From a virus, in the IMG/VR virus record IMGVR_UViG_3300046170_000213, positions 1 to 58,647 of that record: 58,647 nucleotides of DNA; one strand, written 5' to 3'. Positions 44,363-51,085 of the stretch are shown here, in pieces. Every line of letters starts with the position of its first letter. Position 1 is the first letter of the stretch. The position numbers were made by a program, and so were the translations under genes. Under the pieces are notes generated by a model that was not told the DNA's origin, ran no database searches, and saw only the letters and a list, made by a program, of their open reading frames with translations.

Positions 44363-44758
44363 ATGGGACTAGATCAATACGCAGGACTTCGAGATAGTAA
44401 AGGCGAAGTTCATGAAAAGTTTTATTGGAGAAAGCATGCACGCCTACAGGTGTTCATGTCTAAACAATTCAATAAACAAAAAAAAGATCAAGATCACAAT
44501 ACACATGACGACCTGCAACATCTAGGTTTTAATGGTAGTCAAGGTGGTGTTACAATTACTGAAGATGTAATCAAGGATCTGGAAGAGGCAATCAAAAATG
44601 ATTATTATAATCACTTTGCCTCTGATGGTTTCTTTTGGGGTCAGCAATTCCAAGAGGAACAAGTTAAAGAATACAAAGCCCAAGATGAAGAATTTTTAAA
44701 ATGGGCTAAAGAACAAGTTAAAGCAGGAAGACAAATCGGCTACGATTGTTCTTGGTAA
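44363..44758 (+). CDS. Conserved phage protein, MGLDQYAG type
   Basis: 131 residues with the opening MGLDQYAGLRDSKGEVHEKF, then YWRKHARLQVFMSKQF and a Glu/Lys-rich C-terminus with GFFWGQQFQEEQVKEYK. The MGLD..., YWRKH and FFWG blocks mark a widely distributed phage family of unknown function. Perfect ribosome site (AAAGGAG). The gene is isolated between terminator and hairpin. Confidence 0.7.
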   Translation: MGLDQYAGLRDSKGEVHEKFYWRKHARLQVFMSKQFNKQKKDQDHNTHDDLQHLGFNGSQGGVTITEDVIKDLEEAIKNDYYNHFASDGFFWGQQFQEEQVKEYKAQDEEFLKWAKEQVKAGRQIGYDCSW

Positions 44759-44760
44759 AG

Positions 44761-44784
44761 TTTTAAGGGCGAAAGCCCTTAAAA
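44761..44784. terminator. GAAA-loop hairpin terminator
   Basis: TTTTAAGGGC-GAAA-GCCCTTAAAA, a perfect 10-bp stem with GNRA-like loop, 2 bases past the stop of the preceding gene. Its A/T-rich ends let it terminate on either strand. Confidence 0.8.
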
Positions 44785-44931
44785 AATTTGGGCTAGTATA
44801 GGGCGCCTGGACATTTCTGGGCTATACTCTAGGTCGTGACGTGACTGGACTGCAGTGTCTCCTCGTTGATCGATTGGGAAGGAGATCGCCTATTGGCCAC
44901 TGGCCCAAATTAAATTTTTTTATTTTTTTTT
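44785..44931. other. Structured GC-richer intergenic DNA
   Basis: No convincing gene. Contains CTAGTATAG pairing with CTATACTCTAG (2-base bulge), a second short hairpin CGAT/ATCG, and a TTGGCCACTGGCCCAA near-palindrome, then a T-rich run into the next palindrome. The composition is distinctly less A/T-rich than the neighbouring genes. It could be a small RNA or part of the origin structure. Confidence 0.35.
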
Positions 44932-45001
44932 GGGTGGGCCCGCCCATAGTTCACAAGCTTCAAGCAGGGTGGGCCCGCCCAGTATCCTCAAGCCTGCAAG
45001 C
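44932..45001. repeat. Two GGGCCC palindromes with phased CAAGC repeats
   Basis: GGGTGGGCCCGCCC at 44932-44945 and again at 44967-44980. Each is followed at 8-9 bases by a pair of CAAGC boxes (44954, 44961; 44989, 44997) spaced 7-8 bases. A composite unit repeated in tandem, just upstream of a DnaA box. Confidence 0.7.
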
Positions 45002-45017
45002 TGTCAAGAAAATTATC

Positions 45018-45026
45018 TGTGGATAA
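45018..45026 (+). promoter_or_regulatory. Perfect DnaA box
   Basis: TGTGGATAA is the complement of the consensus TTATCCACA. It is followed by A/T-rich DNA and a near-match (TGTGGGATAA) at about 45042. In a phage this suggests recruitment of host DnaA or a borrowed binding site. Confidence 0.5.
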
Positions 45027-45053
45027 CTTAAATATTTTACTTGTGGGATAAAC

Positions 45054-45155
45054 TGGGACCTGCTATAGTAGCAGCAGGTTCATTGCTGGTTAACATGACT
45101 GCCACTTGTACTGACTACGGTTAGTAGCAATGGACCCTAACAACAGAAAGGACAT
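45054..45155 (+). promoter_or_regulatory. Hairpin-rich leader of the 45156 gene
   Basis: CTGCTA-TAG-TAGCAG hairpin, then CATTGCT (45081-45087) pairing with AGCAATG (45126-45132), extended by TTAAC/GTTAG. An AAAGGAC ribosome site precedes the ATG. No clear promoter seen. Confidence 0.45.
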
Positions 45156-47834: not shown

Positions 47835-48567
47835 TTACTCATCTTTTTGACCTAAAATTGTACCTGGAGGCCCTTTTTTCTCTGGTACAATTGGTACAAT
47901 TTTATAATATTCGTCTACTCTACGTAAAAATTCATGCATATACCCCTGAAATTCCTCATCATGCACCTCAAACTTCTGAAAAAAACAATCCTTGCTACAC
48001 ATTAGAATGATTCCAGATTGTATCTTGGTGTCATATACTTGATTGTGGGCCATTGCATACGCCGCCAGCTGAGTAAAGTAGTCATCAATCCATTCTCTTT
48101 GTTTTGGTTTATTAGTTTGCTTGAAGTCAATAATTGCCTCTCTACCGCCATACATTCCTACAACATCTGTTGCACCTGCATACAGTCCAGGATAGTATAA
48201 TGTAACTTCACTACCCCACACTTCTCCCAGGTCCCCGAGTCCTTTTTCTATAACCACATTAGCCATTCGTTCTGCTTCACGACCAATAGACGTTAAGTCC
48301 AAATGATTCTCTCCAAGAATGTACCCTTCCAAATACGTGTGCATTGCTGTGCCTCTCATGGCACTCACATCACGAATCCGGTCAGCTTGCTGGGTACCTA
48401 CCCGCTTCTTCCACTCTTCCAATTTAGCCTTCTTCTCTGGACTCTGAGTCGCTGATAATATAGTCGTCACACGATGGCAACTTCTGTCCTGTAATCTCGT
48501 AATGTCTTTTACCTTCTATCGATGATCTAATCGATGCAGGGTATTCAAATTTTTTATTCCACTTCAT
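47835..48567 (-). CDS. RecB-like PD-(D/E)XK exonuclease, frameshifted
   Basis: Starts at ATG 48567 (MKWNKKFEYPASIRSSIEGK). A single extra T near 48475 breaks the frame, and the other frame continues LPSVTTILSATQSPEKKAK, a recognised phage exonuclease motif. Catalytic residues: HTYLEGYILG, YAGATDVVGM (Asp) and REAIIDFKQT (D-x-K). About 243 residues. Likely processes DNA ends in recombination or host DNA turnover. The gene end carries the last TTGTACC repeats, encoding IVPIVPEKKGPPGTIL. Confidence 0.8.
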
Positions 48568-49148
48568 CTTAGTCCTTTCTCCTTTGCTACTTTTAATACA
48601 TTTTCCATCAACTCTAATGTTGCATGATGTTTTTTATCATTACAACCACTACAACAGAAAGCCAAATTATTAACTTGATAAGTTTTATTATTATCAATTC
48701 GATCAATAGAAAAATTAGTTTGATGCTTTACACGTTTCCCGGTCCCAATTGTACGTTTATAGGTCCATAAATTTTCGCAATAAATACAAAGGTTTCCGTC
48801 ACTTTCTGGATATTTATTTTTCATAGCCAACCTATGCTTTTCTAATTCATTCCAAATCTCAGCCTTAGTTATAGCAGGCCATAGTCCTCGTTTTTTACAC
48901 GATGATGGTTTGAACGCAGCAGCTATACAATTAGTAATATAACCATGCTCTGAATTACCGTAAGACATATTATGTGCTAACTTAACTGCCCTACCATGAT
49001 CAGAGTCATTGTATTTTTTCTGTCTTAGTCGTTCTTTCTTTTTAAACTCTAGGTCGTTTTGATACTTATCTTTATAGTTCCAAACCATTTTTTCGATACC
49101 CTGTTCCCCGTTTCCGGTCGCCCCAACGTTTCTGCCAGGACCACACAT
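48564..49148 (-). CDS. HNH endonuclease
   Basis: 194 residues. Basic N-terminal segments (LRQKKYNDSDHGRAVKLAHN) and a zinc-bearing HNH fold: LCIYCENLW, FSIDRIDNNKTYQVNNLAFC and CSGCNDKKHH. The architecture fits free-standing homing or recombination endonucleases in phages. It starts 9 bases past the LAGLIDADG gene and overlaps the exonuclease start by 4. Confidence 0.8.
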   Translation of the reverse strand: MCGPGRNVGATGNGEQGIEKMVWNYKDKYQNDLEFKKKERLRQKKYNDSDHGRAVKLAHNMSYGNSEHGYITNCIAAAFKPSSCKKRGLWPAITKAEIWNELEKHRLAMKNKYPESDGNLCIYCENLWTYKRTIGTGKRVKHQTNFSIDRIDNNKTYQVNNLAFCCSGCNDKKHHATLELMENVLKVAKEKGLR

Positions 49149-49156
49149 TTAGTTTA

Positions 49157-49609
49157 CTACTGTATTTTTCCAGGAGACTTATTCCATAATCGGTACCAAT
49201 CAAGGTCCACAATTTCAGCATCTCCTTCCAATTTCTGTGTCGCATAATGTTCTATTACTTGTTGAATTTTAGGTAACTTCGTGTGCGCGTAGGGCCACAA
49301 TAACCTGCAGACATAGTACGCATCTCTGAATGTACAACGCCATCGGTATTGTTTCAAGTATTTAGTACCATCAACTCTTAAACCTTTTCTAGGTTTATCA
49401 TTTAAAGTACCAACACCTAACACCTCGTGGACCCACATCAAAACAGATTGATCGGTCATCGTTATCTCCATTGATAGTCTTAAACTATTAGAGATTCGAT
49501 AACCATTACCCTTGTGTTTCTTTTTCTTCTCCGGTCCACGTTTAAAGTGTATTGAACCTTCGCCATCAAATAGCCCTGCGATATACGCAATATCTTCAGA
49601 GCTAATCAT
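49157..49609 (-). CDS. LAGLIDADG homing endonuclease
   Basis: 150 residues with one LAGLIDADG motif, IAYIAGLFDGEGSIHFKRG (about residues 6-25); it should act as a dimer. The rest, RLSMEITMTDQSVLMWVHEV, matches the family. No intron or intein splice sites recognised next to it, so it is a free-standing gene. Overlaps the coiled-coil gene by 8 bases. Confidence 0.85.
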   Translation of the reverse strand: MISSEDIAYIAGLFDGEGSIHFKRGPEKKKKHKGNGYRISNSLRLSMEITMTDQSVLMWVHEVLGVGTLNDKPRKGLRVDGTKYLKQYRWRCTFRDAYYVCRLLWPYAHTKLPKIQQVIEHYATQKLEGDAEIVDLDWYRLWNKSPGKIQ

Positions 49610-50137: not shown

Positions 50138-50204
50138 AAATCTTATACTCCTTTCTTAGATTTAACTAATATAGGATATATCTCATAATATACAATAGGT
50201 GTCA
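50138..50204. promoter_or_regulatory. Divergent promoter region with GATATATC palindrome
   Basis: On the minus strand TTGACA begins at about 50205 with a candidate -10 GATATA 17 bases on. On the plus strand a weaker TTAACT / CATAAT pair (16-bp spacer) faces the 50205 gene. The palindrome GATATATC (near 50174) could bind the adjacent RHH regulator. Confidence 0.45.
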
Positions 50205-50441
50205 ATGAAATTTTTATTAACAGTTTACATTTGTTCTGCAATGAGCGGAGAATGTTATACCAACGAACAATATCCAAAAATATTTCCAGACCATCACGAC
50301 TGCATAAGAGCAGGTCTAACTGAGTCTTATGAGATTATATATGCTGAAGGTAATTTCACTAAAGAACAAATAAATAAATTACAATTGTATGCTAAGTACA
50401 CATGTATGCCCGTCGAAGACAAAGGTAAATTAGTTACATAA
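50205..50441 (+). CDS. Small conserved phage protein, 78 aa, putative signal
   Basis: I choose ATG 50205 (MKFLLTVYICSAMSGECYTN) over the GTG two codons upstream. A short hydrophobic N-terminus, paired Cys residues (GECYTN; HDCIRA; YTCMPV) and an acidic body suggest a secreted or periplasmic protein with disulphides. This type recurs in marine phages, function unknown. Confidence 0.6.
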   Translation: MKFLLTVYICSAMSGECYTNEQYPKIFPDHHDCIRAGLTESYEIIYAEGNFTKEQINKLQLYAKYTCMPVEDKGKLVT

Positions 50442-50444
50442 TTC

Positions 50445-50675
50445 ATATCAACCCCCCTGGTTTCCGTGCACGTACTCCCAGGAGAGCAAAGGCTCCACAC
50501 CTAACCTCATTTTATTGCGAGGATCAACGGTTGTCGTACAGAGGCTAGCGCGAGGCGTTACATGGACGCAGGTCCTTTTCATCATCGTTGTGGCTCCCGG
50601 TAGGTCTCACCCGAGATTATTCCTAACGCATCCTACTGCGCCTATTCCCTAAGGACTACAAAGACCAATGGGCCA
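50445..50675. ncRNA. Candidate structured RNA, GC-rich
   Basis: About 230 bases, markedly GC-richer than the surroundings, without a start-initiated reading frame. Visible pairings include CCTGG/CCAGG (about 50456 and 50478), GAGC/GCTC near 50484, CCTC/GAGG around 50505, GCGT/ACGC near 50556, CTC-GGT / ACC-GAG near 50595-50615 and CGCA/TGCG near 50630. It is not a tRNA, and I did not recognise tmRNA, RNase P or 6S signatures. Strand unresolved. Confidence 0.35.
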
Positions 50676-50882
50676 CTAATTTTGTATACAGCCATAAAAG
50701 ATTCCACTTCCATCTCTCATAACATGTTTGTTCATGTGGTCGAGATAAGTTGTTAACTTATTTCTCAACGCATCACATAGACTAAAGAGATCAACCTCAC
50801 CCACTACATCTATATTTGATACCATTTGTTTTGTAACTGGTATCAGTTGATAAAAACCATCACTTAGAATTATCAGTTCCAT
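50676..50882 (-). CDS. Hypothetical protein, 68 aa
   Basis: MELIILSDGFYQLIPVTKQM, then LFSLCDALRNKLTTYLDHMN. Helix-rich, with no known motif. Its ATG overlaps the end of the 63-aa gene. It borders the structured GC-rich region. Confidence 0.5.
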   Translation of the reverse strand: MELIILSDGFYQLIPVTKQMVSNIDVVGEVDLFSLCDALRNKLTTYLDHMNKHVMRDGSGIFYGCIQN

Positions 50883-51051
50883 ATCGTCTTGTTCCCCAAT
50901 CTATTATTTTTTTTAGACCTGGTGCAGATACTTCTACATCTACTCCATAAGGTTTCCATGCTCTTTTCATTAAATTTAATTCTAATAAAAAGATAGACCA
51001 TTGTTTCTGGTTTATATTCTTTGGTGTTATTGTTATTATTTTTTCTTTCAT
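50860..51051 (-). CDS. Hypothetical protein, 63 aa
   Basis: MKEKIITITPKNINQKQWSI, a small alpha/beta protein with LMKRAWKPYGVDVEVSAPGL. Transcribed directly from the strong promoter at 51058-51085, whose predicted start site coincides with the ATG, implying a leaderless message. The family occurs in marine phages; role unknown. Confidence 0.55.
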   Translation of the reverse strand: MKEKIITITPKNINQKQWSIFLLELNLMKRAWKPYGVDVEVSAPGLKKIIDWGTRRYGTDNSK

Positions 51052-51057
51052 GAAACC

Positions 51058-51085
51058 AATATAGGATTTTATATTAGTTTGTCAA
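51058..51085 (-). promoter_or_regulatory. Sigma70-like promoter, leaderless output
   Basis: Minus strand: TTGACA (51085-51080), 16-bp spacer, TATATT (51063-51058). The -10 ends only 7 bases before the ATG at 51051. The -35 also overlaps the TGA stop of the 45-aa gene upstream. Confidence 0.65.

Follow-up and report, generated by a model that had tools for sequence, protein, structure and literature searches.

Flavobacterium-1 RNA (RF02976) is a named but unexplained family that Rfam types as an sRNA of 121 positions, and the family was reportedly defined by Weinberg 2017. A search of a limited literature collection found no relevant paper on Flavobacterium-1 RNA, on RF02976, or on pelagiphage noncoding RNA. 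Pelagiphages are among the most abundant marine viruses, and their hosts are abundant ocean bacteria. Hairpins at the start codon that hide the ribosome site have been described for the T4 genes e, soc, 49, and I-TevI and for Aeh1 mobE, according to the available part of that source (PMC3014915). In the cryo-EM account of the RNAs OLE, ROOL, and GOLLD, switching between palindromes (GGCC to GAUC or AGCU; GC to CG) serves as evidence of symmetric intermolecular kissing loops (PMC12286853, in the part available).

Here, we describe two structured RNAs, modules A and B, carried in tandem on the minus strand of a viral sequence of 58,647 nucleotides (IMG/VR record IMGVR_UViG_3300046170_000213; the whole stretch analyzed, hereafter the window). 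Module B shares the P1-to-P4 order and the conserved strands of Flavobacterium-1 RNA, but the copy in the window differs in its P2 hairpin and in having a P4 rich in purines. The Rfam model ends before an AUG that B keeps after P4, and B is carried by pelagiphages. Like the hairpins of T4 and Aeh1, B would lay a helix over a Shine-Dalgarno (SD) sequence before an AUG, homing endonuclease genes included (PMC3014915, as far as available). Unlike them, B is a conserved junction-plus-hairpin RNA that is common to unrelated genes and that persists without a gene.

Two tandem structured RNAs on the minus strand

The initial annotation described positions 50445 to 50675 as one GC-rich structured unit of 230 nucleotides and a possible new RNA. 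The GC content is indeed high, 0.528 compared to 0.367 for the window, and 1.4% of 231-nucleotide stretches equal or exceed it. The region lies, as had been said, between a small gene of the plus strand and a minus-strand operon that ends at 50676. It is rightly not called a tRNA, as ARAGORN found neither tRNA nor tmRNA, and neither ARAGORN nor Rfam covariance models matched a tmRNA, RNase P RNA, 6S RNA, or group I intron in the window. Rfam models at gathering cutoffs matched nothing in the window, and two hits of a permissive scan, STnc220 and ZFAT-AS1_1, were set aside as weak and at chance level. The region had been said to lack any ATG frame, which is incorrect, as a 45-codon ATG frame runs along the minus strand (50448 to 50585). 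The ATGs of that frame lie in the spacer between A and B, and the element is found without the spacer and with indels in relatives. Thus, the frame is not a conserved protein. A protein-coding reading was rejected both for this frame and for the 39-codon frame that follows the AUG, as neither is conserved.

The stems are apparent from comparison. For the region taken alone, no fold was more stable than dinucleotide shuffles (z of +0.71 for the plus strand and +1.09 for the minus strand), and because neither strand beats the shuffles, the "six or more stems" initially counted are no more than chance in a single sequence. Homologues, however, reveal real stems on the minus strand, and covariation among them is strong for both modules, in support of a structured RNA. 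Similarity searches divide the stretch into a right half (A) and a left half (B), each read on the minus strand, such that the single unit becomes two, A at 50676 to 50590 and B at 50580 to 50444 (Table 1). The left half is present without the right half in other viral contigs, and the order of the modules is A-B in the window and in L035, L044, L049, and L058 and B-A in L041 and L042. We conclude that the region holds two structured RNAs of pelagiphages, arranged in tandem and each conserved in its own right. Judged by sequence comparison, the first reading had caught something real: a tandem of two phage RNAs, the function of which we infer below.

Table 1. Positions of RNA features and neighboring genes in the window
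Feature	Position	Strand	Support or remark
Module A, structured RNA	50590..50676	-	Alignment A5, 30 copies
A, helix P1	50676-50672 with 50594-50590	-	
A, P3 hairpin	50615-50611 with 50600-50596	-	
A, pseudoknot	Strand 50666-50662 with loop 50607-50603	-	
Module B, divergent Flavobacterium-1-type RNA	50444..50580	-	R1, 144.1 bits; RF02976, 31.7 bits; covariation
B, helix P1	50578-50574 with 50492-50488	-	
B, helix P2	50569-50534	-	
B, helix P3	50530-50500	-	
B, P4 hairpin	50452..50486	-	Palindromic tip UGCA at 50470-50467
SD-like 3' strand of P4, purine rich	50452..50459	-	Sequence and predicted anti-SD pairing in this copy type
Conserved AUG after P4	50444..50446	-	Kept in 185 of 191 distinct copies
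Upstream small gene, 68 aa	50676..50882	-	Open reading frame list
Upstream small gene, 63 aa	50860..51051	-	No Pfam or PHROG match
Promoter-like site of short operon	51058..51085	-	11 of 12 consensus positions
Convergent gene	50199..50441	+	PHROG 19893 family, E 7e-14

Module A begins, in the window, on the final base of the upstream stop codon. In 30 aligned copies, 93.5% of cells are paired, compared to 31.1 to 48.4% when the pairing is slid, and double changes are found at 11 of 19 pairs, located in P1, P2, and P3. The pairs of the pseudoknot (GGUCU with AGACC) are almost invariant, and thus covariation cannot test them. Rfam gave no credible match, only chance-level ones, to the copies scanned. 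Module A appears to be an uncatalogued pseudoknot-type RNA, such that the claim of a new RNA held for this half, which adds a second RNA motif without an Rfam match, and failed for B, which belongs with RF02976. A 38-base piece of A is found at 94.7% identity in intergenic DNA of the Pelagibacter phages Kolga and Aegir. We note that in Aegir (L033) and Kolga (L034), module A lies a few genes from a phage ribosomal protein S21 gene and a terminase gene. In phage 023Pt_psg01, a 408-base gap (L321 1195-1602) beside a PHROG 19893 homologue holds, on its reverse strand, A-like pieces (CTTGGACGC..GGTGACCTACC) that are perhaps a divergent module A.

The structure of module B was first set by hand from 29 sequences in a plain MAFFT alignment, and in those same sequences, from which it was read, 94.6% of cells pair, compared to 50.9% at most when slid, with double changes in 16 of 34 pairs. 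A covariance model (R1) built from this structure found a single copy in the window. When both subtypes were aligned together (78 distinct rows), pairing held in 93.7% of cells (27.6 to 41.9% when slid), double changes rose to 24 of 34 pairs, and the covariation score was 0.470 compared to 0.136 when shuffled, although this alignment leans towards the model because it was fitted to it. In P4, 98.6% of cells are paired and all 8 pairs show double changes, and a 17-base piece of it occurs in at least 119 IMG/VR stretches. In a permissive scan of 901 bases, RF02976 matched the window on the minus strand from 50578 to 50451 (E 6e-4), but the score of 31.7 bits is below the gathering cutoff of 58.9 bits. 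That cutoff was reached by 4 of 16 loci scanned whole (75.7 to 95.6 bits) and exceeded in 6 of 18 phage records (up to 115.5 bits); L052 scored 63.9 bits. L160, L125, and L126 scored 90.3 to 95.6 bits with RF02976 and 98.9 to 104.7 bits with R1. Because relatives above the cutoff and the copy in the window align in R1, B is a divergent relative rather than a plain member, and by sequence it is a divergent branch of the Flavobacterium-1 family. P3 presumably resembles a k-turn and P4 a bulged-G module, both by pattern only. Pairing of the AUG tail with a strand of P2 was considered and dropped, as no consistent covariation was seen by eye. We note that L064, L076, and L127 carry a 91-nucleotide variant of B (60 to 61 bits with R1) in which P1, P4, and the AUG are kept and the middle is much reduced.

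Carriers and genomic context

Every named phage record with a piece of A or B belongs to a Pelagibacter phage (two in one search and five in another), and no feature is annotated at the match in any of the five matched records. B was present as a single copy in 21 of 27 records searched; the six without it were Kolga, Aegir, two prokaryote genomes, and two IMG/VR records. For the last 25 kb of the window, megablast gave a single relative, phage 023Pt_psg01 (9% covered, 76.5%). A bacterial origin was rejected: the 16 genome contigs that contain the 17-base P4 piece are no more than chance in 257 Gb, and R1 scored them at 15.9 to 20.3 bits, mostly for that piece alone. RF02976 had no match in 395 Bacteroidota genomes, in a search run without a positive control, and R1 had none among 385 genomes from the class to which a Rhodobacteraceae MAG belongs. 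Both searches matched nowhere and are thus no proof of absence.

The genes on either side of B recur. The family of the 68-amino-acid gene lies upstream in 70 of the 110 loci with an upstream frame called, and an upstream frame ends within 90 nucleotides of B, mostly within 15, in 92 of 123 main-type loci among the matches listed. Downstream, among the 117 loci with a frame called, 54 have a member of the PHROG 19893 family facing B, and of the 37 phage records with the convergent gene, 35 are Pelagibacter phages. Promoter-like sites in the region are not more numerous than in shuffles. Separately, a third conserved hairpin-like intergenic element (CCTAYCC..AAAGAGGGAAA..GGRTAGG..GGTGAG..), the arms of which appear to covary, lies between B and the convergent gene in L052, L156, L124, L059, L092, and others.

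In HTVC027P, B sits in an array within a gap that holds no annotated genes, between the genes for the terminase subunits. This placement, together with varied neighbors and a module order that resemble recombination, would fit a unit conserved at the DNA level, as a site of recombination or packaging, or a packaging RNA of the phi29 type. The phi29 packaging RNA assembles by loop-loop pairing, in which loops pair with each other and not with themselves. That RNA is a known phage multimer (PMC12286853, in the part available), and loop-loop assembly of a phage RNA is also what we predict for B. G-U pairs, however, are common among the changes in P4 (GU in 34 of 78 rows at one pair and UG in 24 at the next), which RNA pairing predicts and DNA does not. 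Moreover, B has no match to an Rfam packaging RNA and no fixed link to a terminase gene in the window, where it lies about 8.6 kb from the large terminase gene. We consider a DNA site or packaging RNA very unlikely.

HTVC027P (MN698241.1) is a cultured carrier of B with public infection RNA-seq (BioProject PRJNA1253180), in which gp33 and gp34 form their own early-to-middle cluster, and B is thereby directly testable; in the main text of that study, a word search for noncoding, intergenic, and small RNA came back empty (PMC12753301). We note that in HTVC027P, at L317 2700-3120, and in many type II loci, B ends an RNA-like array of about 420 nucleotides. A ..CCTGCTAATAAT element recurs before B in such arrays, a TTTAGAATGATTCTAAAAATCATTCTAAAG hairpin follows B in some contigs, and promoter-like TTGACA..TATAGGAT sites lie downstream. 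The window has a GC-rich, gene-free stretch with strong inverted repeats at 44755-45095, between the small and large terminase genes and thus at a position equivalent to that of the HTVC027P array; this stretch does not contain B.

The palindromic tip of P4

The tip of P4 is drawn from a small set of palindromes. In the 66 type I copies whose recovery was not biased at P4, the tip is always one of two, UGCA (42) or UCGA (24), and among distinct P4s, it is UGCA in 18, UCGA in 11, GAUC in 12, and GGCC in 4, while a further 2 are truncated. GAUC and GGCC were the tips sought in the type II count, which left no other tip over. All four tips are palindromic, compared to 1 in 16 random tetranucleotides. 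Each switch of tip takes two substitutions, and no intermediate was seen among the 66 type I copies or the 45 distinct P4s. At least nine changes between UGCA and UCGA were placed on a quick tree of 45 rows built with the tip left out, a count from a short alignment that recombination could inflate. Main-type copies were excluded from this evidence because the search pattern contained UGCA.

The switch is of the same kind as that in OLE, ROOL, and GOLLD, and a dimer of B is therefore a specific prediction, and a cheap one. By analogy, B likely forms a homodimer through its P4 tips. Loops switch between palindromes in all of these RNAs, and GOLLD, like B, is phage borne. The three RNAs are much larger than B, at about 137 nucleotides, and share no common sequence or Rfam match with it, and the dimer of B is predicted only.

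The start codon after P4 and the genes behind it

Why B keeps an AUG is the central puzzle. Among the matches listed for the P4 piece, an ATG follows 12 to 14 nucleotides later in 122 of 123 main-type copies, and the remaining copy lost the region to a contig end. When copies found by the P4 piece were pooled with those found by an independent P2 pattern, the ATG was present in 105 of 106 distinct main-type, 52 of 52 canonical type I, and 28 of 33 type II copies. At least seven unrelated families of phage genes begin exactly at this AUG. Ten frames of at least 75 codons that start there were scanned with Pfam or PHROGs, which named a peptide deformylase, a LAGLIDADG endonuclease, an exonuclease, a methyltransferase, a PDDEXK nuclease, two 2OG-Fe(II) oxygenases, and a PHROG 274 protein. 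A further frame encodes a glycosyltransferase-like protein (PHROG 1574; Pfam below cutoff), and the frame of L128 had no Pfam or PHROG match. In the window, all that follows the AUG is a frame of 39 codons that runs antisense to the convergent gene; this frame is broken at codon 10 or 11 in L081, L103, and L120. Frames of at least 60 codons follow the ATG in 31 of 105 main-type copies, in 4 of 52 canonical type I copies, and in none of the 28 type II copies, and frames of 5 codons or fewer follow it in 16 of 105, 17 of 52, and 17 of 28, respectively. The AUG is kept with and without a gene, and hence two readings of B lie close together.

Predicted pairing to a generic anti-SD, which may differ from the 3' end of host 16S rRNA, was strong in the main type, with a median of -9.3 kcal/mol before frames of at least 26 codons (n = 68) and -9.1 kcal/mol before shorter ones (n = 54). 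In canonical type I, the median was -2.9 kcal/mol (n = 12 and 54). The SD-like stretch of the main type is the 3' strand of P4 and thus is hidden by the fold. It lies inside a helix before a gene start in main-type copies with genes; in the window, no gene lies behind the AUG.

B may, together with A and other modules, act as a stand-alone noncoding RNA, possibly as a dimeric scaffold or in the regulation of host or phage functions. The AUAUGA would then belong to its conserved 3' terminus, and any gene arriving downstream would simply borrow the AUG. Copies without genes outnumber those with genes, each genome has one B copy, Rfam types RF02976 as an sRNA, and the palindromic tip is also in keeping with such an RNA, as is the gene-free array of HTVC027P with promoter-like sites on either side. 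A purely trans-acting RNA, however, would not be expected to have unrelated genes start exactly at its AUG or to keep a strong SD-like stretch in the main type. We regard a stand-alone RNA as a serious possibility, nearly as likely as control in cis. Retention of the AUG before minimal frames might also suggest a decoy, in which hairpin, AUG, and a few codons trap initiating 30S subunits during infection. Pelagiphage-infected cells, those with HTVC027P included, lack detectable rRNA in the available part of one account (PMC11066056), a coincidence only. The SD-like stretch, however, is weak in canonical type I and, where strong, is hidden in P4, and an element present once in the DNA would need expression to become abundant. 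A decoy is very unlikely.

We tentatively favor, at somewhat less than an even chance, a phage RNA that controls translation from its own AUG, probably as a dimer. Control in cis is favored by the covariation of A and B, by an AUG at near-fixed distance with unrelated genes starting exactly there, by the strong SD-like stretch inside main-type P4, and by an upstream frame that ends near B. It is disfavored by the fact that most copies, the one in the window included, have no real gene behind the AUG, by the weak SD pairing of canonical type I, and by HTVC027P, where B in its gene-free array ends AUG-AUU-UAG, such that the AUG meets a stop after one codon, and where a promoter-like site that would serve gp34 can be read by eye after B. 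Neither an alternative fold nor a ligand came to light for B, and one copy per genome with unrelated genes is unlike a classical riboswitch regulon.

How cis control might work can be outlined. An mRNA would start near 51050 and carry the two small genes, then A, and then B, such that in the window this short operon transcript would end with A and B, and the site behind the AUG is empty. P4 would block 30S binding until opened by a ribosome terminating at the upstream stop, by a protein, by a ligand, or through dimer formation. The palindromic tips would let two copies kiss, and a dimer would probably be either an active or a repressed form of B. Any gene that comes to sit behind the AUG, such as those for peptide deformylase, homing endonucleases, or oxygenases, would fall under the control of B, and we guess that the pseudoknot of A may protect or modulate the shared transcript. 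The fullest form of this reading, a portable pelagiphage cassette with its own start codon in which homodimeric kissing of P4 controls whatever gene follows, is unlikely on present evidence. If true, it would be a phage-borne, gene-independent, dimer-controlled module for translation starts, often flanked by uncatalogued RNA modules such as A.

Either way, the unexplained Rfam family gains a phage home, a strand, a 3' boundary at the AUG, and gene contexts, and the AUG and the palindromic loop give B two sharp, testable features. We note, finally, that two endonuclease genes lie about 1 kb from B in the window, LAGLIDADG (49157-49609) and HNH (48564-49148). The LAGLIDADG gene has no B in front of it here, though its family starts at the AUG of B in other phages.
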